Shown one piece after another: positions 2,546-13,353 of a DNA stretch of 43,729 nt (positions within the stretch are counted from its first letter, which is position 1; every line of letters begins with the position of its first letter). The translations under genes and the position numbers were made by a program. The DNA is from Deltaproteobacteria bacterium (GTDB lineage: Bacteria; Desulfobacterota; Binatia; DP-6). Location: the NCBI GenBank assembly GCA_005879585.1, contig VBKG01000330.1, positions 1-43,729 of the forward strand, given 5' to 3'. The notes beneath the pieces are model-generated. The model was not told the origin of the DNA. It made no database searches and worked only from the letters and a program-made list of their open reading frames with translations.

Positions 2546-2793
2546 GCTGTGCGCCGTCCACCGCGCGATGGCGGAATGGCGTCTTCGTACCGGGGTCCGG
2601 GCCGCGAATCTTGCCATTCGACGCCAGACTTCATGCCCGCCGGTGAATGTTCGAGTTGGCGGTGAGCCGTCATTCGCCGGGCGATTCGCATGATCGCGTC
2701 CGTGGCATTCGATGGCGGTCGCTCCAACGCCGCTCACTGCATTCATCGACTTCTCGACGGTCGCGGCGCGCGGTGATCCGCGCGCGTCCGAAG

Positions 2794-3195
2794 TTACTCG
2801 CGAACGGGATGCGGGGCCTTCGGCAGCTGGTCGTTGCACACGGGGGAGAGGTCGCTCCGATGCCGCTCGAGACAGCGGGCGACGCGCCCGTGCCCCGGCG
2901 AGACATCCCAGCAGAAGCGCGAGATGTCGTAGCGGCAGATCGCCACCAGGCGGCCCATCTCCTTCTCCAGGTTCTCGTGGCGGGCCGCGCACTCGGGGGA
3001 GAGCTCCTTCTCGTGCTCCTTCAGACACGCTTGGATCCGCCCGCCGCCTATCGGGACCTTGGCGCAGAACTTCTCGATGTCGGCCGCGCACGGGGTCGCA
3101 CTCCGGGCGATGCCCGGGAGGAGCACCACGCCGATCACCAGCGCGCCAAGCGTGAGCCGTCGCGACACCGTAGGACTCCTCGAGGCGGCCTTCAT
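2794..3195 (-). CDS. Secreted protein with two GLG1-type cysteine-rich repeats
   Basis: 133 residues. An N-terminal hydrophobic segment (residues 14-32, ending ARSA) is a signal peptide. The mature protein holds two copies of a Cys-rich repeat: CAADIEKFCAKVPIGGGRI with CLKEHEKELSPEC, and CRYDISRFCWDVSPGHGRV with CLERHRSDLSPVC. This is the cysteine-rich repeat known from Golgi apparatus protein 1/GLG1 and common in bacterial periplasmic proteins. Eight cysteines in a regular pattern imply disulfide bonds. Function is unknown. The gene lies just downstream of the broken DUF2950 gene (start 4 bp after its stop), so it may share that transcript. Confidence 0.75.
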   Translation of the reverse strand: MKAASRSPTVSRRLTLGALVIGVVLLPGIARSATPCAADIEKFCAKVPIGGGRIQACLKEHEKELSPECAARHENLEKEMGRLVAICRYDISRFCWDVSPGHGRVARCLERHRSDLSPVCNDQLPKAPHPVRE

Positions 3196-3199
3196 CCGT

Positions 3200-3840
3200 C
3201 TACCGGGTGGGTTGCCAGGATTCGTCGGGGTCGTAAGCGGTGATGGCCTTCGCCGCCTCGCCCGTCCCTTCGCCCAGGTCCTTCTGGAAGACGACTCCCT
3301 GCTCGCCCACGATTAGGGTCATGATGCCGCTCGATCCGTGATCGGCCGGCCACGCGACGAGCGCGAATCCGCCGGTCATCCGCCCGTCCTTCACGTAGTC
3401 CCTGGCACCATCCGGCGCGTGCGCTCCCTGGGCCGTCAGGATGCGGAAGAAGTAGCCGTGGTAGGGTGCCGGCGCCTGGCCAGCCTCGCCGTGGCGGTAA
3501 TCCTCGGCCGTGGCGGCTGCGACCAGCGGCCCGAGCGGGCTCACGTCGTGATCGGTCGCCTCCCAGTAGAGGCCATCTCGTTTGCCTGGCGTGCTGCGAA
3601 ACGACTGGGCATAGGTGTGGAAGCGCCTCGCGAACTCTATCTGCGCGCCCACGTACGCGCGACACACCTCGATCGCGGTGAGCTCGTTGCGCCCGATGCG
3701 GCGATTGAGCAGCTCTTCCTTGCCCGCTGCGGTGTCGAACCGCCATCCGTCGGCGTCGCGCACGATCGGGATCGGGAAGGGCCAGTCATCCCGGCCGACG
3801 TGCAGGATGGCGATCGCGTCGGAGGTGCGCTCGATCCGTG
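3200..3840 (-). pseudogene. DUF2950 gene, 3' part, separated from its 5' part by an inversion
   Basis: About 205 residues of a DUF2950 protein are readable from near TRIERTSDAI to the stop: DDWPFPIPIVRDADGWRFDT, RRIGRNELTAIEVC, QSFRSTPGKRDGLYW, APYHGYFFRILTAQG and GFALVAWPADHGSSGIM are all typical of the family. Upstream of about 3840 the frame becomes a meaningless Ser/Pro/Arg-rich sequence, because the family's N-terminal third (signal peptide, FPSPEAAARAL, IVSSGDPVGDSAARKRF) lies on the opposite strand at 3991-4215. As it stands the gene has no proper start. DUF2950 is a periplasmic family of unknown function, nearly always next to DUF3300, as here. Confidence 0.85.
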
Positions 3841-3994
3841 TCCGCTCGGCGGCGGCGGTGGACAGCGCGGCGGCGGCTTCGGAGGTGGAGGGGGAAGAGG
3901 CGGAGGAGGAGGTGGCGGCGGGGGGGGAAGAGGCGGAGGGGGGGGGGGAAGGGGCGGCGGGGGCGGCGGCCGTGGCGGCGGAGGGCGCCGATGA
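3841..3994 (+). pseudogene. DUF3300 gene, Gly-rich 3' end, inverted
   Basis: Read on the plus strand, this stretch gives GGGGGQRGGGFGGGGGRGGG and continues as a Gly/Arg tail ending GGRR-stop at 3992-3994. DUF3300 proteins commonly end in such a Gly/Arg tail, and the minus-strand DUF3300 reading frame at 4216 lacks it. The stop TGA overlaps the ATG of the inverted DUF2950 5' piece (ATGA at 3991-3994), the coupling expected for a DUF3300-DUF2950 pair. The tract includes long G-runs where sequencing indels are likely, so the frame around it should be treated with care. Confidence 0.7.
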
Positions 3995-4215
3995 GGACCA
4001 CAACGACCCTCGCCAGCCTGCTCTGCCTCGCGCTGCTGCCCGGAACCGCCCGTGCGCAGGAGCACTTCCCGTCCCCCGAGGCGGCCGCCCGCGCGCTAGA
4101 GGCCGCCGCGAGCAGCGGTCCCGAGCGCCTGACCGCCGTCCTGGGCCCCGGGAGCGAGGAGATCGTCTCGTCGGGCGATCCCGTGGGCGACAGTGCGGCG
4201 CGGAAGCGTTTCGCC
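3991..4215 (+). pseudogene. DUF2950 gene, 5' part, inverted
   Basis: The plus-strand product starts with a signal peptide (MRTTTTLASLLCLALLPG, cleavage near ARA-QE) followed by HFPSPEAAARALEAA, RLTAVLGPGSEEIVSSG and DPVGDSAARKRF. These are the N-terminal third of a DUF2950 protein. After KRF the similarity stops (ATPDPPGRV...). The expected continuation (an AYDExH-like segment and then RIERTSD) is found only on the minus strand, starting near 3838. Together with the overlapping inverted DUF3300 tail this defines an inverted block of about 375 bp. A few residues at the joint are missing from both parts. Confidence 0.85.
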
Positions 4216-5462
4216 ACCCCTGACCCACCAGGACGCGTCGCCGGCTGCTGCGAGGCACCCGGTCGCTGCCCGCCTTGCCGGCCAGGCTGACCGCCTGGTG
4301 CCGACGGCCGCCCGCCACCTTGCCCCGGACCCGCCCCAGGCCGCGAGGCCGCCTCCTTGGAGCCTCCCCGGGCGGGCTGCTGGGAGGCACGTGCCCCGCC
4401 GGGCTGCCCGCGGTCGAAGCCGCGCGCCACGTCCCGATTCGCGCGGTCGCGAGACGCCACCTGATCCCTGCCGCCATACTTCTTCGCGGAGGCCTGGTCC
4501 CGGTAAGGCACGCCGCCGCGGTGCTCGGGGTTGTGCTGCCACTTCTGCCGGCCGCCCTCGCCTCGCGTTCGGTTGCCGCTCTTGTTGACGTTCTTTTCCT
4601 TGTTCTTGTTGACGTTGACGTTCTGATTACCGCCACCACCTCCGCCGTTGTTGTAGTAATTGTTGACCTCGTTGTGACCCCAGTCGCAGTCACCCCATAC
4701 GGCGGCGCCGACCGCCATCCCGGCGCCGAACGAGAGCAGGCTCGCCGTGGCGACGTAGCCGGGAGGATACCCCGTCATTGCGGGGTAGTACGGCGTCGGG
4801 GGCGGGCCGTACACCGCGTCAGGGCTGTACGTGGGGACGTATACGACCTGCGGGTCCGCGGGCTCGACCCGGATGATCTCCTTCTCCTTGACGATCTCGC
4901 GGGTGACGACCTGCTCCTTCGTCGTCTTGAGGGCACCGGACTCGTATGCCTTCGCCCGCATCCGCTGCACCACGTCGAGGACGTCGTCCTTCTGGCCGAG
5001 GAACGCATCCCCCAGATCCTTCGTCCAGTCGAGATTGTCCGACATGCGCTGGAGCAGGTCGGGAAAGCGCGTGAGCGACTCCACGCTCGGGTCCCAGTCC
5101 TGGCTCTCGAGCGCCTGGTCGAGGGCCTCGCCCTTCAGACTCGCGTTCTTCGTGCGCCAGCGAGCAGCCTCGACCACCTCGAGGGGATAGGTCGCCGCGA
5201 TCAGGACCTGCACGGCGAGCGCGTCCGGATAGAGCGCGATGGGCGCGACGAGCTGCTCGATCTGCGCCGGCGAGAACTTCGCGGTCTGTGCCGCCGCCGG
5301 CGTCCCGTCGGGCGCCTCCTCGGCGGCGCGGGCAAGGCGTGCGATCAGCGCCGCAAGCGCGACGAGGATCAACGGGAGCGCGCGACGCCTTCCGGATGCG
5401 CCTTCCCTGTGGGGAGGCCTATCGAGCACCACGCCTCGGCGCGACCCTCCATCAGACGGCAT
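4216..5462 (-). pseudogene. DUF3300 gene, main part, 3' end displaced by inversion
   Basis: About 415 residues. After an N-terminal region with a hydrophobic segment (PLILVALAALIARLA, signal peptide) comes FSPAQIEQLVAPIALYPD, the hallmark opening of DUF3300, then LIAATYPLEVVEAARW, WDPSVESLTRFPDLLQRM and VYVPTYSPDAVYG, a GAAVWGDCDWG motif, an Asn/Gly/Lys-rich linker and a Gln/Gly/Pro-rich region. Homology is lost near 4216, where the minus frame enters antisense DUF2950 sequence. The Gly/Arg tail that should follow is on the other strand at 3841-3994. Start at 5462 (ATG); nearer GTG starts are possible. The protein is periplasmic or envelope-bound, with unknown function. Confidence 0.8.
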
Positions 5463-5559
5463 GGGGGACCTATACCCCTCGAACCGGTCTGCGTCTTGCC
5501 CTTTCGTGCCAGTGCGCTTCGACGCGCCGCCGTCCGATCGAGGAGGGTCCTGGGGAGGG

Positions 5560-5822
5560 TCATAGACGGGGGATCGTACCGACGGCGGCCGCCAGGATCG
5601 CACCGGTGGCGATGAGCACGGGGCGGCGCAGGGCCGCGCCACCCAGCACTGCCACGATACCGCACTTCACGGTCGTGTTGGTGAGGGTCGCGAGCACGAC
5701 CGCGTTGGCCGCGACGTGGGCGTCGCCGCTCCTGGCGTACTCGGCCATGGACAAAGTGATCGCGTCGACGTCGGTCATGCCGGCCAGCCCCGCGACCATG
5801 TAGAGCCCCTTGCCCGCGATGT
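5560..5822 (-). pseudogene. DUF4010/MgtC-type membrane protein, 3' fragment
   Basis: The minus frame ending at 5560 gives GLYMVAGLAGMTDVDAITLS, MAEYARSG, then NAVVLATLTNTTVKCGIVAVLGG and a last hydrophobic helix. This is the C-terminal ~85 residues of the DUF4010 domain found after MgtC/SapB domains in inner-membrane proteins of about 400 residues. Everything N-terminal is missing: at about 5820 the sequence switches to the opposite-strand serine-recombinase remnant. An ATG at 5838 could start a 92-residue open frame, but it is most likely a truncation product left by an insertion. Confidence 0.75.
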
Positions 5823-6075
5823 TCGAACCCCCGCCCATGGAGTGGATCGCGGAGCGCCTCGGACGACTCCAGGACCTCCTGGAGCGACAGACCGAGCGAT
5901 CAGCCCTACTCCTGCGACGCGTCCTGGGCCCCGTCCGCCTCGTCCCGACGAGACCGGACGTCGGCCGGCCCTTCTATCGCGCCGAAACCGCCCTCCAGGC
6001 CCTCGAGCTGCTCGAGCCCCCGGAGGGCGGTTCGAATTGGTCGCGACAGTGGAGGCGGGGGGAATCGAACCCCCG
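5823..6075 (+). pseudogene. Serine recombinase, C-terminal remnant
   Basis: The plus frame reads PPPMEWIAERLGRLQDLLE, RTERSALLLRRVLGPVRLVP, DVGRPFYRAETALQALELLE and GGSNWSRQWRRGESNPR. This is the C-terminal end of large serine recombinases of the resolvase/zinc-ribbon type, in which a coiled-coil-like helix leads to a VGRPYYRA-type strand. The catalytic domain is absent. The last codons run into the ssrA-like 29-bp repeat at 6048-6076. No start codon of its own can be assigned. It is outside the tyrosine-recombinase island as defined by the direct repeats and probably belongs to an older insertion at the same site. Confidence 0.65.
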
Positions 6076-6076
6076 T
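6048..6076. repeat. Distal attachment-site copy (att) of the ssrA 3' end
   Basis: These 29 bp are identical to 13004-13032, the 3' terminus of the intact tmRNA gene (T-arm GGTTCGATTCCCCCC plus 3' acceptor strand CGCCTCCA, read on the minus strand). The sequence on the left side is not tmRNA or tRNA, so this is a bare 3'-end duplication, as left by integration of an element into the 3' end of ssrA. Confidence 0.85.
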
Positions 6077-6465
6077 GGCGAAAATCGGAGAAGCTCCGCT
6101 CTTACGGCACCTTACGTGCAGATATGGTCTTGGGCGGCTACCACGCGGGTCGGCCAAACTTGCTCATTTTCCCTCACCGATGGACGCCGTTCTTGGAACC
6201 GTTCCAAGCCGCGCCGCAGTATCCATCCGGGCAGTCTGCCCCCTTAGACGTCGGACACTGCACCATCAAGGTTGCGCTCAGCTCCAGCAGGACCGACGAA
6301 GGATGGCGCGTGGCGGCCTGGGCGTGGGCAAAAGGCACTCGATAGCGAGTTATTGCGCCCGGCTTCTCACATCTACCACGGCGACGCGGAGCCGGTGACT
6401 TGCAGCACATCCGACTTGTGCGGAAGACGACAAGCGTTCACGGGCGCGCCGTGGCGGTTCTCTTG
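6077..6465. other. Island left end without recognisable gene
   Basis: About 390 bp of moderate GC between the distal att copy and the stop of the oxidoreductase gene. A minus-strand frame (6174-6410) ends in a Cys-containing segment (CPTSKGADCPDGYCGAAW), but it lacks a convincing start and resembles nothing I know. No hairpin with a T-run was seen downstream of the operon. It probably holds decayed element sequence. Confidence 0.5.
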
Positions 6466-7878
6466 CTAAGAATCGGCCTCGCTCGCCTGTCCCCTCGCCG
6501 TCAGGTTGAGCCGACGAGCCACGCTGGCTGCCAGGCGGCCGAGGATCCCCGCATAAGTGGGGAACGAGAGCGGAACTCGAGCGAGATCGTCCACACGCAT
6601 CCCGGCCGCCATCGCTATCGTCGCGACTTGGACGATGTCGACCGCGCGCTCACCGACGACGTGGCATCCCAGAATGTTGTAGGTTGCGCGGTCGACGATC
6701 AGCTTGCAGAACCCGTTCGTCCGTCCGTCGATGATCGTGCGGGTGGCGGAATCGAAGCGGATGATCCCTGTCACGACGTCGTGCGCTTCGCGGGCGCCCG
6801 CTTCGGTCAGGCCCACCTGGGCGTACTCCGGATCCGTGAAGCTCCCGATCGGGATCGGCCTAGGGGGGAGCACAGTCGTCGCACCGAGCACCGCGTTCGT
6901 GGCCGCGACGAAGCCCTCTTGTATGGCCTGGGGGACGAGCAAGAGGTGACCGGTCACGTCGCCGGCTGCAAAGATGTGCGCCGCGAACGTCGACAGGTGA
7001 GCGTCGACCCGAACGTACCCGCGATGGTCGGTCTCGACGCCTGCCGCCTCGAGATTCAGCGCTGCGGTATTGGCCACCCACCCGACCGCGACCACCACGA
7101 CACTGGCCTCCGTGCCGTCACGGAGACCGTCCTTCGAGAAGTTCATGCGCACGCCGTCAGCGGTCTTCTCGAACGATTCGATGGTCCCGAAGTCTTCCCG
7201 CACCATCATCCCAGCTGCCCGAAAGGCCGCCGCGACCGCGGCCGAGACATCTTCGTCCTCGGTCGGCAGAATACGCGGGCCCGCCTGGAAGAGCTGGACC
7301 CGCGACCCGAATGCGTTGAAGACCGAAGCGACCTGCGCACCAGTTGCTCCAGCGCCGATGACCAGCATCGAGGGTGGCACCGCCGTGAGGCTCCACGCGT
7401 CGCTGTGTGTGGCCGTGTATTCGACCCCAGGAACCGAGAGCCGGCGGGGTACGCCGCCTGTGCAAACGATCACCTTTTCGGCGTGCAGCCGCAGTCCACT
7501 CTCTGTCTCGATGGTGTGCGGGTCCACGAACCGCGCCATGCCGGCGCGTTCATGGACGGCCACTCCGGCGGAATCGATCTGCCCGCGGAAGGCAGAATGG
7601 GCTCGCACGTCATTCGTGACCTCGCGCACGCGAGTGAGCAGCCGGCGATACTCCAGCGCCGGCTCGCTCACGGCGATGCCGTACTGCCCGAGCTGTCGGG
7701 ATTCTCGGATCAGACGGGCGGCGTGGGCCAGCGTACGCACGGGCACGGGTCCATCGTTGGCCGCCATCCCTCCGAACTCCTCGCGGGTCACGAGGGCGGT
7801 CTTCGCGCCCAAATCTGCTGCGCGGAGCGCGGCAACCACCCCCGCCGGCCCGGCGCCGACGACCACGACGTCGAACAT
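6466..7878 (-). CDS. FAD/NAD(P)-dependent oxidoreductase of the dihydrolipoamide-dehydrogenase fold, lacking redox cysteines
   Basis: 470 residues; start at the ATG of MFDVVVVGAGPAG, whose GxGxxG motif binds FAD. A second Rossmann motif (LVIGAGATGAQVA, near residue 180) binds NAD(P)H. A third FAD segment is HIFAAGDVTG, and a C-terminal dimerisation domain follows. Overall layout is that of class I pyridine nucleotide-disulfide oxidoreductases. However, the CxxxxC redox motif is replaced by GGMAANDGPVPVRTL (residues 36-50), and the usual C-terminal His-Glu pair is replaced by PLSFPTYAG. It therefore cannot be a mercuric, glutathione or lipoamide reductase; direct hydride transfer to a quinone, dye or protein partner is inferred. 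Last gene of the island operon, 10 bp after the peroxidase stop. Confidence 0.85.
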   Translation of the reverse strand: MFDVVVVGAGPAGVVAALRAADLGAKTALVTREEFGGMAANDGPVPVRTLAHAARLIRESRQLGQYGIAVSEPALEYRRLLTRVREVTNDVRAHSAFRGQIDSAGVAVHERAGMARFVDPHTIETESGLRLHAEKVIVCTGGVPRRLSVPGVEYTATHSDAWSLTAVPPSMLVIGAGATGAQVASVFNAFGSRVQLFQAGPRILPTEDEDVSAAVAAAFRAAGMMVREDFGTIESFEKTADGVRMNFSKDGLRDGTEASVVVVAVGWVANTAALNLEAAGVETDHRGYVRVDAHLSTFAAHIFAAGDVTGHLLLVPQAIQEGFVAATNAVLGATTVLPPRPIPIGSFTDPEYAQVGLTEAGAREAHDVVTGIIRFDSATRTIIDGRTNGFCKLIVDRATYNILGCHVVGERAVDIVQVATIAMAAGMRVDDLARVPLSFPTYAGILGRLAASVARRLNLTARGQASEADS

Positions 7879-7888
7879 GCGTTCCGTC

Positions 7889-9217
7889 CTACGTCTCCAG
7901 ATCGGCGAGCCAGCGAAGGGCGCGCAATCCGGGCATGAAGGCGTATTCACCGCCCCGGGTGACCACGAACCGCGTGAGCCCCTGAAGTCGTCTGGGAATC
8001 GGGCGGCGTGGAATGACGAAGCGGCCGGGGTCCAGATGCGATCCGACGATCGGATCCTTGGCGTCGCCGCCACCGAAGAAGACGCCGTCCCCGACCCACT
8101 GCGACTGAACGAACTCGAACTGCCGCCCGAGGTGCGCTCCGACGAACGCGAACATCAACCCGCGATCGGCGCCGTCGTCCTGGAGGACTCCTTCCGGCAG
8201 GTGAGGACCGTAGGCGGCTCCACGTCGGATCATTCGATGGATCCGCGCGACGCCTGCAATCGACGCATCGCGCGGGTTCGTACGTCGAATGTGCGAACCC
8301 GGGGGTGTTTTGAATCCTGCGACATCGTCGGCTTCGTATTGGAAGTTGTTATTGCGTTGCGGATCCGCCCCTAGCTCGGGATCGTCGTGGAGCGGGCAGA
8401 GCGCCAACGGCGCGCCGCTGCGCCAGCGGCCCATGACCTTCGCGGCCAAGAGCTCTTCGTCTTCCGGGCTGGTGGAGTTGGCCTTCAGGTAGCTACGGAA
8501 TGCAGCAACGCGCTGGTGCAGCTTCCGGAAGGCGACGTAGGTTCCGTTCCGGCCGAGAATCTCGGGTCGAAGCGTCTGGACGCCGCCGATCTCGTCGCGA
8601 TAGCCGAGGACGAATTCACCCGCTTTGAGCGGCTCTTCGTTGGGATTGGTTCCCGGGATTCCACTCCCCTCGACGGCCGGGTGGCTGATCCCGTCGCGGA
8701 AGCCGAAGGGCTCCTTCTCCGTGGGCAGCGCGTGGCAGTCCTGGCGCCAGATCGCGGCCACCCCGGGTAGCTCCTGGACGGCCTTCAGCGCGCGCTCGAG
8801 CGCGACCGCGAGCCGTGCCGAATCCTTCGCTACGGCGGCCACGACGACGTGAACGTCGGCGGTCCCGAGTGGAGCTTCCCAGTGCTCCGGGCTACTCTCG
8901 CCCGTATCGCCCAGCTCCTTCGCTCGCGCCGCCATCCCCTGCCGGAATTCCCACGCGAAGCTCTCGAGCGAGTCCTTCGGCACGCCGAGCGCCCGTAGCC
9001 CGTGATAGGTGAGCGCGACGCTTACCCCCGTATGGGCCGCGAGATGATCGCGGTTGGCCGCCGGGGTTACCGCGCCGCTCGCGCGCCGCATCAACTCCCG
9101 GCCCGCCTTTCGATCGTCGATCCGCAGCAGGATGTAGGCAGCGGCATATGGCGATGGACGTGGGCGCAGAACCCCGCTCTGGATGTCGTCGAGCTCGAGG
9201 GTCACTTCTCCTACCAT
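7889..9217 (-). CDS. DyP-type heme peroxidase
   Basis: 442 residues, no signal peptide. The DyP signature GFRDGISHP (GxxDG, residues 172-176, with the catalytic distal Asp) is present, as are the downstream YVAFRKLHQRV segment, the proximal heme-ligand region GSHIRRTNPRD, and the late RGLMFAFVGAHLGRQFEFVQ segment. DyP enzymes use H2O2 to oxidise dyes, phenolics and other aromatics. Position in the operon: between an unrecognised GATase-like gene (27 bp upstream) and the cysteine-less oxidoreductase (10 bp downstream). The absence of Tat or Sec signals suggests cytosolic action or export with a partner. Confidence 0.92.
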   Translation of the reverse strand: MVGEVTLELDDIQSGVLRPRPSPYAAAYILLRIDDRKAGRELMRRASGAVTPAANRDHLAAHTGVSVALTYHGLRALGVPKDSLESFAWEFRQGMAARAKELGDTGESSPEHWEAPLGTADVHVVVAAVAKDSARLAVALERALKAVQELPGVAAIWRQDCHALPTEKEPFGFRDGISHPAVEGSGIPGTNPNEEPLKAGEFVLGYRDEIGGVQTLRPEILGRNGTYVAFRKLHQRVAAFRSYLKANSTSPEDEELLAAKVMGRWRSGAPLALCPLHDDPELGADPQRNNNFQYEADDVAGFKTPPGSHIRRTNPRDASIAGVARIHRMIRRGAAYGPHLPEGVLQDDGADRGLMFAFVGAHLGRQFEFVQSQWVGDGVFFGGGDAKDPIVGSHLDPGRFVIPRRPIPRRLQGLTRFVVTRGGEYAFMPGLRALRWLADLET

Positions 9218-9244
9218 CCCGGCCCCTTTCGTGAAGAGCGACGG

Positions 9245-10264
9245 TCAGCTCGCCGTCGCGATGTTTCTCCAGAACCGCTCCAAGCTCTCATCGGCGCCGA
9301 ACAACCGGTTGAAGACCGTGGAGTCGGCCAACAGGACGTCGCCCGCGCGCTGGTCCTTCGGGGGCATCCATAGGAACGCGTTGAACTCGGTGTTGCCCGC
9401 GTCGGTGAACGGATGCGGCCGCGACGTGTCGATCGGCTGCCTCGCGAGGACGTGAATGGACCGAGTGTCGTCGGTCGTCAGCGCGTAGTGCGGAAGATGC
9501 ATGTGGAAGTTGAACGACGTGACACCCGTGAGCCAGCCTCGGCGATCCAGGTCCCTCGCGATCGACAAGGGCGCGATCTTCTTCGTCCCGGGAACGAGCG
9601 CTGGGCGCAGGCCGTGGCGGTTCTCGACGGGTACGCCGAGTCCCCGCATCAGCGATCGCGTGTACCTCCCAAAGCGTTGCTGGCGGGGCACCAATGCATC
9701 GCCGTGGTGGTGATACTCGACGTCGCGCACCTTCGGATCGTCGGAGATGCCGACCTCGTGATGGGGACCCAAGATCAAGCACGTTCCCTCACGCTCGAGG
9801 AACTCCCGGAGGGCCTCGATCTCCTCCGGCGCTGCGTCTTGCTCCGTGATCATGTGATCCAGTCCGAACACGAGCAGCGTGTCTGCATCCGCCAGGACTC
9901 GCTCGTCGAGCGGAAGCTTGACGCCAGCGTGATCGATCCGCTGAAACACGGGCACTGCATGCCCGGTCGTCTCCTGGGCGAACTCCTGGAAGGGCACCCA
10001 GGCCCGGAAGAACAGCTCGAGTGCTCCCGCGATGCCCTGCTGATACTGCAGGGGGTTCGACCACTCGGGCCCCTCGTAGGCGGGCCATGCCACGCGCCGG
10101 ACCTCCGTCATCGTCGAGAAGCGGTTGTCGAGCTCCGAAGGATCCCGGCCTGCCTCGGCGGGGTAGCTCCACGAGATGTAGATGCTCACGCGTCGTCGGC
10201 CCGGCGTGTATTTCCGTCGCACGTGGCTCTGGTTGTAGGTACGTGCGCTGTTTGATGCGCTCAT
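9245..10264 (-). CDS. Unrecognised protein, possible GATase1/ThuA-like fold
   Basis: 339 residues from the ATG at 10264, chosen because a GGAG Shine-Dalgarno lies 8 bp upstream; a GTG two codons earlier is possible. No signal peptide. The segment VLADADTLLVFGLDHM, then IEALREFLEREGTCLILGPH, resembles the core of class I glutamine amidotransferase-like or ThuA-like folds (strand, helix, then a Gly-rich strand for a trimmed-down active site). A His-rich stretch follows (EYHHHGDALV), which could bind metal. I cannot name the family. Its place directly upstream of the DyP peroxidase gene suggests a shared substrate or maturation role. Confidence 0.75.
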   Translation of the reverse strand: MSASNSARTYNQSHVRRKYTPGRRRVSIYISWSYPAEAGRDPSELDNRFSTMTEVRRVAWPAYEGPEWSNPLQYQQGIAGALELFFRAWVPFQEFAQETTGHAVPVFQRIDHAGVKLPLDERVLADADTLLVFGLDHMITEQDAAPEEIEALREFLEREGTCLILGPHHEVGISDDPKVRDVEYHHHGDALVPRQQRFGRYTRSLMRGLGVPVENRHGLRPALVPGTKKIAPLSIARDLDRRGWLTGVTSFNFHMHLPHYALTTDDTRSIHVLARQPIDTSRPHPFTDAGNTEFNAFLWMPPKDQRAGDVLLADSTVFNRLFGADESLERFWRNIATAS

Positions 10265-10289
10265 AATCACGTCTCCGGATGCCGCACTT

Positions 10290-10823
10290 TCACTGGAACT
10301 GATCGAAAATTTCCGAGAATGCGTTCTTGACCCTCAACGCCTTCTTGATCTCGTCGGCGGTGACATACGGATACTCGCCGTATTCGATGAAACTCGGGCA
10401 CTGGTGTGCCCGGACGAACTTGATGAAGGCGTCCGGGTTCGTCTTCCAGTCCATCGGGAAACCTTCGAGGTTCTCGAACACCGTATTGACCCCTGCCTTA
10501 CCGAAGAGGGCTATTGCGTCCTCGGTGTACTTGTCGAAGTTGGTGTCGAAGATGCCCTGGTACATGAATCGCGTGTCGTCGTCGAAAAGCACCCACCGCA
10601 GGTAGTGCAGCTTCAACGGGGCCAAGAGGTATGGGTCCTTCTCCAGAGCGCTCGCGAGGTTGAGGCCGTAGCCACGGATGGCTTCAGCTCGGCCAGGCTT
10701 CACGCGCGAGATGATCGTGAAGCCGTAACACGCGGGCGTCCGGGGATAGATGGGGCCGTATTTGCCCTGCTCGAGTTGGTCCGTCTCCTTCGGTATGACG
10801 ACAGCCTGTGGTTTGATCTCCAT
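10290..10823 (-). CDS. Unrecognised 177-residue protein, ferredoxin-like fold suspected
   Basis: An AGGAGGA Shine-Dalgarno sits 6 bp before the ATG at 10823. No signal peptide or membrane segment. The central part has the pattern YGFTIISRVKPGRAEAIRGY, then LHYLRWVLFDDDTRFMYQGI and FDTNFDKYTEDAIALFG, the strand-helix-strand arrangement seen in ferredoxin-like dimeric alpha/beta-barrel proteins and in DyP-like halves. It has no heme-binding signature. It sits 25 bp upstream of the GATase-like gene, in the same operon as the DyP peroxidase. Fold assignment is inference; function is unknown. Confidence 0.75.
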   Translation of the reverse strand: MEIKPQAVVIPKETDQLEQGKYGPIYPRTPACYGFTIISRVKPGRAEAIRGYGLNLASALEKDPYLLAPLKLHYLRWVLFDDDTRFMYQGIFDTNFDKYTEDAIALFGKAGVNTVFENLEGFPMDWKTNPDAFIKFVRAHQCPSFIEYGEYPYVTADEIKKALRVKNAFSEIFDQFQ

Positions 10824-10850
10824 GCCGGTCCTCCTCTTCTTTTGTGTGCC

Positions 10851-11789
10851 CTAGAACTTGACCGCGACCGTAAACTGCAATGAGTAACCCTGGAACGTCG
10901 ACCGATTCGCAAACTCCTTGAAGTACTTGAAACCCGTGTTCACCTTCCAAACGGGCAACACCACGTTACAGGCGAATCCAAGAGCGTTGACGACGTAGTG
11001 TGCGCTCGCCTCCGTCGGCGTGACGTTCGGTCCGGTCTTGTCCCTCGTCTGCCACTGATTGTAGCCGACGAGTCCGAGCTGTAAGCGCAACGCCTCGTGC
11101 AACGCGAACGTCTGCGTGAGCGAATAGTCGAGATTGAAGGTGTCACCGGGATGAATTCCGGTGCCCTCCTGCTCGGTGTGGAATTCGTACATCTGGAAGG
11201 CGGAGAGTGCCGTCGCCTTGTTCTCCGTCAGGTAGAACGTCTCGCCGCCCGAGACGGTGGACGTCCAGTAGCCGGACCCGACGTTGTCGTTGGCGCCCGC
11301 GCTGAATTTGCCTGTGGGCGCCAAGAATCCGTAGACGGCGCGAACGTCGGCGCGTGGCTTCCTCCAGGCGAGGATCAGCGGCTGATAGTACGAGTCGGCC
11401 AATCCTTCTCCCCCGCTGAGTTCTCCCCGGCCGGTCGCGGTGAGCGAATTGTTGGCGACCGGCACCGTGGCGGAGGCGGAAGGGACCGCACCACCCAACA
11501 GCCAAATTTCCGAGTCTCCGACCCAGACTAAAGTGTTCAAGTCCATCAGCACGGACTGCCGCCCTGTGGCGAGGACCTCACCATTGGGGCCCCGTAGTTG
11601 GTCGCGAGAGTAGAACAAGAGCGCGTTAGCATAACTGAAGCCGGCGCCTGGCGTGACTCCGGAGTTGGTCGCGTTCATGCCGAGCGGGTATACCCCCCTG
11701 ACCTGCGCTCGGCCCGGCGAAGCGAACGCGACGACGGCCACGACCAGGCCAACCCATGTCGACCACGAAGCCGCAATGTCTCGTCTCAC
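10851..11789 (-). CDS. Outer-membrane beta-barrel protein of the phenol MetA-pathway family
   Basis: 312 residues with a signal peptide (hydrophobic VGLVVAVVAFASPG, cleavage near GRAQ). The mature part alternates polar and aromatic residues typical of an outer-membrane barrel and ends in Phe (LQFTVAVKF). Features such as GVYPLGMNATNSGVTPGAG, ALLFYSRDQLRG and YQPLILAWRKPRADVRAVYG match proteins annotated as MetA-pathway-of-phenol-degradation or SphA-like. Members are thought to pass hydrophobic or aromatic compounds through the outer membrane. The start is a GTG at 11789, the first codon giving a full signal peptide; it is uncertain. Follows the BASS transporter gene by 68 bp. Confidence 0.8.
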   Translation of the reverse strand: MRRDIAASWSTWVGLVVAVVAFASPGRAQVRGVYPLGMNATNSGVTPGAGFSYANALLFYSRDQLRGPNGEVLATGRQSVLMDLNTLVWVGDSEIWLLGGAVPSASATVPVANNSLTATGRGELSGGEGLADSYYQPLILAWRKPRADVRAVYGFLAPTGKFSAGANDNVGSGYWTSTVSGGETFYLTENKATALSAFQMYEFHTEQEGTGIHPGDTFNLDYSLTQTFALHEALRLQLGLVGYNQWQTRDKTGPNVTPTEASAHYVVNALGFACNVVLPVWKVNTGFKYFKEFANRSTFQGYSLQFTVAVKF

Positions 11790-11857
11790 CGATCGGCGGT
11801 CAGTCCTGGCATCTCCTCCGCTGCCTTCGTGAGCCGCGGCGGCGGATGTCTCATGGG

Positions 11858-12706
11858 TCAGCGTCCCCTCTCCTCGCCACGCACGGCCAACGCACGCGCC
11901 AGTGGGAACAGGAGCAGCAGGCCGACGATCGCCACCACGACCACCATGACGACGACCTTCGGGTCTGTGAAGTTCTGGCCGCCGACCACCAGTGCGGCGG
12001 CAATGTTCCGCTGCGCGGTTCCGAGCGCCATGACTCCCCGGATGTCCGAGACCGGTCCGCCGAGAAGCCACCCGATACCGGCCCCCCAACAGAGAAAGAG
12101 GACGCTCGCCAAGACGCCGCGGGTGCCGAACAGTCCAATCAGGTTGTTGACGTTCACCGTGAGTATCAGGAGCGTCAACAAGGCGAGGCTCACGCTGGAA
12201 GTTCGGTCTAGCAAGGGCCGCATGCGCTCGGCTGTGACCTCGTGGCGAGCCTTCACTCCAAGCCCCAGTGCGAGAGGCAGCAGCATGAGGAGCACGAGCG
12301 AGCGGGCGATCTGTGTCGCATCGACCGACACGCCGTTCAGCAACCGCGGCAGAACGAGCGGCATGTAGCCCACGGTCGCGACCATCAAGAGGACCATGAG
12401 GCCGACCGCAAAGGCGAGGTCGCCCTTGGCGATTCCCGCCAGCTTCGGGAGAAACGGCGCACCTGCGGCCGTGCCCAGCAACAGGAGGGCGACGCGCAGC
12501 GGCTCGTCCAGCCAGAGCAGCCGCGCGACGAGGATGGCTCCAAGCGGCATCAGGACGAAGTTTGCGAGCAGCGCGAGTGAGACCACCCGTCCGTTGCGTA
12601 GCGGCGCGACGACCTGCCCCACCGTCAGACTGACCCCTACCGCCAGCATGCTCGATACGACGAACGCGAGCATCGCGGCGGACACTGCGCTATTGAGCAG
12701 CGTCAT
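11858..12706 (-). CDS. Bile acid:sodium symporter (BASS) family transporter
   Basis: 282 residues, ATG at 12706 with AAGGAG 7 bp upstream. About nine hydrophobic helices. Helix 4 region GTAAGAPFLPKLAGIAKGD and the late GTAQRNIAAALVVGGQNF match BASS-fold carriers (COG0385), where the discontinuous helices around these motifs form the Na+ and substrate sites. Substrate unknown; family members move organic acids, bile salts, pyruvate and related anions. It is the first gene of the six-gene island operon. The operon promoter must lie in the 12707-12760 stretch next to the integrase remnant; I see a TTGACG (minus strand, 12740-12745) but no good -10. Confidence 0.85.
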   Translation of the reverse strand: MTLLNSAVSAAMLAFVVSSMLAVGVSLTVGQVVAPLRNGRVVSLALLANFVLMPLGAILVARLLWLDEPLRVALLLLGTAAGAPFLPKLAGIAKGDLAFAVGLMVLLMVATVGYMPLVLPRLLNGVSVDATQIARSLVLLMLLPLALGLGVKARHEVTAERMRPLLDRTSSVSLALLTLLILTVNVNNLIGLFGTRGVLASVLFLCWGAGIGWLLGGPVSDIRGVMALGTAQRNIAAALVVGGQNFTDPKVVVMVVVVAIVGLLLLFPLARALAVRGEERGR

Positions 12707-12752
12707 TCTCGGGCTCCTTCTGCAGTCGGGAGGTCGCCGCGTCAACCTCACG

Positions 12753-12950
12753 CGCACGGTCTGCGTCGAGATGACGATGCGCTACAGCCACCTCGCGCCC
12801 GCGCACAACGCCGCCGCCGTCGAGAAGCTCGCCGCAGCCCTGGAACGTTCGACGAGGCTGCTAGGGCCTCAAAACCGGCTTCCCACGCGGCTTCCCGCAG
12901 TGGCCCGAGAGCAAACGTCCGCGGACTGGAACGCAACTGGAACGTTTTGA
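12753..12950 (+). pseudogene. Tyrosine recombinase (integrase), C-terminal remnant
   Basis: The plus frame reads VEMTMRYSHLAPAH then NAAAVEKLAAALE. This is the segment around the nucleophilic tyrosine (TMRYSHLAP) of phage/ICE-type integrases, plus their C-terminal helix. The rest of the catalytic domain (Arg-His-x-x-Arg) is missing: upstream sequence is the 5' end of the oppositely oriented BASS gene. The frame stops at 12950, 53 bp before the ssrA attachment sequence, the usual place for an integrase gene of an ssrA-integrating element. Confidence 0.85.
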
Positions 12951-13003
12951 GCGGGCCGCAGACGCCCGCCAAGAAGAAGCTCGTTGAAGAACACCGTTTG
13001 AGA

Positions 13004-13032
13004 AGTGGAGGCGGGGGGAATCGAACCCCCGT
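13004..13032. repeat. Proximal attachment site within ssrA
   Basis: 29 bp identical to 6048-6076. It spans the T-arm and 3' acceptor strand of tmRNA, so integration leaves the gene functional. Confidence 0.85.
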
Positions 13033-13353
13033 CCGAAGGTGCATCCACGAGCGAATCTACGTGCGTAGCCCGCGAACTTATCTCGCCGCGCTCGCTCCCA
13101 CGGGCGGGATCTCGCGCGGCCAGCCGGCGTTTGATCTCGGCCCCCGCCCCGCCGGCGCTGACGGGGACCCAGCCCGAGAAATGGCGCCTCAGCCCGCCCT
13201 ACGGGCGCAGGCAGGTGAAGCGTCGCGGTCAATTAGGCCGCGAGTGCAAAGTTAGCGTCTGCAGTTAAGCAGCCCTGCTCGTTTTACGAGGTGAACAGGA
13301 CCCCCGGCACGCATCTCTCGTTTCCTCACCCCCGTCGAAACCAGTTCGCCCCC
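13006..13353 (-). ncRNA. ssrA: Transfer-messenger RNA (tmRNA)
   Basis: 348 nt. The 5' end GGGGGCGAACTGGTTTCGAC is the canonical tmRNA start. The 3' end TTCGATTCCCCCCGCCTCCA closes the acceptor stem with GGGGGCG. CCA is not encoded. The tag frame is at 13233-13262: resume codon GCA, encoding ADANFALAA then TAA, so stalled proteins receive A-ADANFALAA, a typical ALAA degradation tag. Pseudoknot-forming GC-rich stretches follow. With SmpB it rescues stalled ribosomes. Encoded 57 bp after smpB. Confidence 0.97.

Follow-up and report, generated by a model that had tools for sequence, protein, structure and literature searches.

A class V DyP-type peroxidase gene with two unnamed protein families in a mobile cassette at the ssrA gene of a deltaproteobacterium

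The physiological substrates of DyP-type heme peroxidases are a standing question, and most work has been done on isolated enzymes. A DyP gene in a Deltaproteobacteria bacterium of the DP-6 lineage (contig VBKG01000330.1) raises the question of which other proteins such an enzyme may work with. The gene is one of six tightly spaced genes, all on the minus strand, at positions 6466–12706 of the window, i.e. the whole 43,729-nucleotide stretch of DNA that was analyzed. In order, the genes encode a BASS-type (SBF) inner-membrane carrier (11858–12706), an outer-membrane barrel (10851–11789), two proteins termed P177 (10290–10823) and P339 or P341 (9245–10264), the DyP (7889–9217) and a flavoprotein (6466–7878). 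The intergenic gaps are 68, 27, 25, 27 and 10 bp; the gap between P177 and P339 is 19 bp, not 25, if P339 starts at GTG 10270. Coordinates, strand and gaps are as the first-pass annotation had given them. The parts are of known kinds except for P177 and P339, which no family library names: neither has a Pfam or NCBIfam family or a PADLOC defence match, and no credible match came from profile searches against PDB sequences.

The BASS carrier passes the PF01758 cut-off (52.3 bits against 24.3, E-value 7e-14). Against TIGR00841, the bile acid:sodium symporter family, it scores 53 bits where 326 are needed, and the assignment is at the family level only. The barrel has a Phenol_MetA_deg domain (PF13557, E-value 2e-30) and a signal-peptide-like N-terminus, with its start at GTG 11789. 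The DyP scores 116.5 bits against TIGR01413 (cut-off 100.5). It retains the Asp of the GxxDG motif, the proximal His and the distal Arg (D175, H309 and R331/R332), which are invariant. Its score against DrDyP (8re3) is 403 bits, versus 176 for the next kind (7anv). It is a class V, DrDyP-like protein and a predicted heme peroxidase. PF20628 (Dyp_perox_C) matches nothing in this genome, a result of the Pfam model and not of a missing DyP. An export signal was not seen by eye on P177, P339 or the DyP, thus the chemistry is probably cytoplasmic.

The flavoprotein has the lipoamide dehydrogenase fold. The FAD/NAD (Pyr_redox_2, PF07992) and dimerisation (PF02852) domains of the pyridine nucleotide-disulfide oxidoreductases, such as lipoamide dehydrogenase and MerA, are present and the redox CxxxxC is absent: GGMAANDGPVP replaces GGTCxNxGCxP, with A and P standing where the two cysteines would be. 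The description of this protein as cysteine-less is correct for the redox pair but not for the whole chain, which has other cysteines. As judged from its sequence, it is a FAD/NAD(P)H oxidoreductase incapable of disulfide chemistry. The disulfide is also lost in other lipoamide dehydrogenase relatives, i.e. the NAD(P)H-quinone dehydrogenase LpdA and soluble transhydrogenase.

The AF2 model of P177 is mediocre (pLDDT 73). Its top Foldseek matches are nearly all ABM/NIPSNAP proteins, and these are weak, the best E-value being 1.8e-3 (0.001 is not reached) with a TMq of about 0.3. The earlier proposal of a ferredoxin-like protein is weakly borne out with respect to the fold, which may be ABM/NIPSNAP-like; the term denotes a fold and not an Fe-S protein. 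The model of P339 is better (pLDDT 81, pTM 0.85). Here the guess of a GATase/ThuA-like fold agrees with the best PDB match, the ThuA-like 1t0b (E-value 4e-4, probability 1.00), although the TM of 0.42 on the query is weak and by sequence P339 matches no Pfam family at an E-value of 1. P339 displays the family-wide His-rich motifs PHHD[VI]G, HHGD, NxHxHLP and HPF, and has no conserved Cys. Even the lone homologues with 37% identity keep these motifs with little or no change, and we read them as a putative metal site. In the predicted secondary structure, the PHH appears to follow the strand after which GATase1 proteins bear their nucleophile.

The operon starts directly after the 3′ end of ssrA, the tmRNA gene, at positions 13003–13353 on the minus strand (ARAGORN; Rfam RF00023, 184.7 bits). 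Flanking tRNA genes had been considered as the border and were ruled out, since ARAGORN finds a tmRNA. The last 29 bp of ssrA (13004–13032) recur as a perfect direct repeat at 6048–6076, and the unit between, which consists of the operon and one att copy, is 6,956 bp in length (6077–13032). Its G+C content is 64.7% and that of the surroundings about 70–71%. In a genome of the same family but another genus (G004), the site is empty: the left flank (262 bp, 100% identity) joins the ssrA of that genome, which is 86% identical, exactly at the far repeat, and there is no operon. In a genome of the same genus (G001), the operon and adjoining left flank are about 99–100% identical to those of the window and the sequence beyond ssrA is 80–88% identical. 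P339 is rare in the phylum (one of 297 sampled genomes; three of 98 relatives, with its own genome counted). The operon is therefore a recently inserted mobile cassette at ssrA, an aspect which the first-pass annotation had missed. Both the repeated ssrA end and the empty site in a relative are as in an island integrated at ssrA. An integrase of its own is absent: the contig of the window has no integrase match, and the 11 matches to integrase domains are elsewhere in the genome, on other contigs.

It might be argued that the near-identical segment of G000 and G001 is an artefact of metagenome assembly or binning, as both genomes are fragmented and the 3′ half of ssrA is itself conserved. This is highly improbable, however, because the G004 contig, which lacks the operon, joins the same left flank to its own ssrA at the 29-bp repeat and is only about 80% identical beyond ssrA. 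In addition, the insert differs from its surroundings in G+C content.

To the left of the far repeat, positions 2686–6076 contain DUF2950, DUF3300 and a DUF4010 remnant. This region is 99.8–100% identical to G001, except around 3860–4218, and 98–100% identical to G004 sequence in parts that adjoin ssrA; beyond ssrA the identity is 80–88%. A probable explanation is an older island in tandem at this ssrA site.

A P177 profile was scanned against about 85,000 species genomes, and 340 were found to encode relatives. The best 80 of these by P177 similarity, four plasmid loci and two relatives make up a set of 86 loci from actinomycetes, myxobacteria, Caulobacter and Nostoc. In all 86 of these loci, a set picked by P177 similarity, P177 and P339 are found with a class V DyP, and the possibility that the 177- and 339-residue proteins never accompany a DyP elsewhere therefore does not hold. 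The gene order is P177-P339-DyP in 82 loci. It is P177-DyP-P339 in Nostoc and DyP-P177-P339 in a genome of another family of the same class (G032); a Caulobacter locus (L093) has P339 close by but on the opposite strand. Because the 86 loci had been picked by P177 similarity, a second sample of 198 actinomycete genomes was analyzed. A full-length P339 is present in eight of these (one of the eight genes has a stop codon), a close P177 in the same eight, and each adjoins a class V DyP. In the same sample, all 15 P177-like genes are within about 2 kb of a class V DyP, and at four of the 19 places with a class V DyP a P177-like gene was not detected. Thus P177, P339 and the class V DyP are the constant core, a conserved unit across several phyla. 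In Nostoc the DyP is 43–44% identical and P177 and P339 are 64–69% identical, thus the DyP is perhaps the member of the set that can be exchanged. Trees group the core of the window weakly with Myxococcota and Caulobacter (support 0.59–0.84), and no donor is therefore named.

P339 also occurs without the core, in Rhizobium and Caballeronia homologues of 37–42% identity that are beside other genes. In Rhizobium sp. T1473 a lone homologue is between a DUF692 and a DNA-binding-domain protein (L009:5697–8862); we take this operon (DUF2282, DUF692, DoxX) to be bufferin-like. Streptomyces sp. CB02959 has a second DyP (55% identity) with a 31% identical P177 paralogue (L051:15241–17183) about 3 kb from its P339-type cluster.

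Clustering of neighboring open reading frames at the 86 loci shows the SBF carrier to be the sole further common gene. It follows the DyP on the same strand in 45 of the 86, with Pfam confirmation in examples; in Nostoc HK-01 it is present but divergently oriented. The BASS proteins are 23–32% identical between clusters, thus the cargo is possibly not the same. The flavoprotein without CxxxxC recurs as an accessory in 13 of the 86 loci; it is after the DyP in Myxococcota, as in the window, and before P177 in Nonomuraea. Its orthologues in Myxococcota, Nonomuraea, Thermoactinospora and Caulobacter are mostly 65–73% identical and all lack the Cys pair. The Phenol_MetA_deg barrel accompanies the module in its own genus only and is therefore an add-on. 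G032 has the DyP, a 25% identical P177, P339 and two SBF carriers, with a divergent flavoprotein in which the Cys pair is again lacking. It also encodes an exported, outer-membrane-barrel-like protein, which has no Pfam family and differs from the barrel of the window. That one and the same functional set is built here from other versions of the genes is the strongest argument for a linked function. The proposal that the set forms one functional unit agrees with this recurrence of the two unnamed proteins with the DyP, and of the BASS carrier and flavoprotein. The proposed aromatic substrate is unsupported, as the name Phenol_MetA_deg is insufficient and ring-cleavage genes do not recur in the neighborhoods. 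The claim that no described pathway has this set is in agreement with our search of open-licence PMC papers, where a description was not found, although this does not prove novelty.

Distant P177 homologues adjoin class V DyPs in several other architectures. At 19–37% identity they have in common the signature LHxxRxxxFDxDTRx(6)FDxxxDxY. A P177-like gene, a class V DyP and a catalase-family gene are found together in Deinococcus, Rhodococcus, Microvirga, Methylorubrum, Sphingomonas, Rhizobium and Acinetobacter. The gene that directly precedes DrDyP in Deinococcus is the P177-like one. In Streptomyces (L101:4145–7514) and Sinorhizobium (L102:4264–8820) the third gene encodes a DUF4331 protein. 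The Sinorhizobium locus additionally has a NIPSNAP gene and a second P177-like gene. Some sister clusters contain a P450 with ferredoxin and reductase, and a plasmid of Pararhizobium qamdonense encodes a 1,423 residue protein which is a fusion of a P450, a P177-like domain and a DyP (L098:3775–8043). We tentatively suggest that the P177 superfamily might be an obligate and overlooked subunit of class V DyPs, which activates the heme or delivers the substrate, with the third gene (P339, catalase-like or DUF4331) setting the subsequent chemistry. DrDyP by itself is reported to be low-spin and to lack activity at physiological pH (PMC10820274). If P177 is an obligate subunit, this would explain the inactivity of DrDyP alone at neutral pH, and P177 may be what the purified enzyme lacks.

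From the gene association and the ssrA cassette that are observed, we infer molecular steps and contacts for a mobile, self-contained cytoplasmic DyP module that oxidizes an imported organic anion; we put the probability of this reading at about 0.45. The BASS carrier would import a small organic anion, which in Gram-negative bacteria would also pass the outer-membrane barrel. P177, as a small ABM-type barrel, would bind the DyP as a partner subunit and either present the substrate or bring the heme into its active state, and the DyP with peroxide would oxidize the anion. P339, as a His-rich and probably metal-dependent enzyme of the ThuA fold, may convert the oxidized product, e.g. by hydrolysis or isomerisation. 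The flavoprotein may move hydride from NAD(P)H to an oxidized quinone- or radical-like product or, alternatively, to O2 to make peroxide. The best-supported order, as read from the gene association, would be import by BASS, oxidation by DyP/P177, conversion by P339 and hydride transfer by the flavoprotein. Several points count for this module: co-location of the core in 86 of 86 loci and in the eight actinomycete genomes, the invariant DyP catalytic residues, the fold and invariant histidines of P339, the SBF carriers in 45 of 86 loci and in Nostoc HK-01, the gene set of G032, and the other architectures in which a P177 homologue adjoins a class V DyP or is fused with it. The weak structure matches of P177 and P339, a P339 metal site predicted from sequence, the low identity of the BASS proteins between clusters, the SBF relatives that export and the divergent DyP of Nostoc count against it.

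The DyP and P177 may instead be protective and destroy organic hydroperoxides, perhaps of fatty acids, or another toxic oxidant, with BASS and P339 processing the products. The patchy, mobile distribution fits a conditional benefit, the pairing with catalase-family proteins in sister clusters would be the same idea, and a 3-hydroxyacyl-CoA dehydrogenase adjoins the P177-like/DyP clusters in Deinococcus and Acinetobacter. However, neither a catalase nor a fatty-acid gene recurs near the P339 version, and an outer-membrane barrel with an importer-type carrier is unexpected for detoxification; we regard protection as unlikely. Some SBF relatives are exporters, and a small biosynthetic or tailoring pathway could make an oxidized metabolite for export by the carrier. 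Many hosts are actinomycetes and myxobacteria, ABM-type proteins such as the Foldseek matches of P177 are common in polyketide tailoring, and the P450 clusters and P450-P177-DyP fusion point in this direction. This is quite improbable, however, as carrier-protein, ligase or synthase genes do not recur within ±9 kb of the core loci, and diversified metabolites are not usually made by proteins as strongly conserved between phyla as P177, P339 and DyP are.

P177, P339 and a heme peroxidase form a set that recurs in distantly related bacteria, in many cases together with a membrane carrier, and the ssrA cassette shows that a single event can bring in the whole unit. The conserved partner set, taken from neighborhood and a natural fusion, is a first handle on what class V DyPs work with.

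The closest known system is DrDyP of Deinococcus radiodurans (DR_A0145, 8RE2/8RE3), a class V enzyme that is 45% identical to the DyP of the window and has a P177-like neighbor; its crystal work was on the DyP alone (PMC10820274). Unlike the window, the DrDyP locus has a catalase-family third partner, no P339 and no adjacent BASS gene. Here again, in the catalase-family clusters of Methylorubrum, Sphingomonas, Rhizobium and Acinetobacter, the P177-like gene adjoins a class V DyP as in the window, but a catalase-like protein is in place of P339 and an SBF-type carrier is not annotated beside it. LpdA and soluble transhydrogenase have the fold of the flavoprotein, which however is far below all equivalog cut-offs and is in an operon with a DyP. 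ThuA/GATase1-like proteins (1t0b; Agd3, PMC7229062; Paracoccus dimethylformamidase, PMC7686228) may be similar in fold to P339, whereas P339 is without a sequence-family match and has its own set of His motifs. Islands integrated at ssrA are known, e.g. the vcrABC islands of Dehalococcoides (PMC3146451); in comparison, the unit in the window is only 7 kb, is integrase-free inside and consists of exactly one operon.
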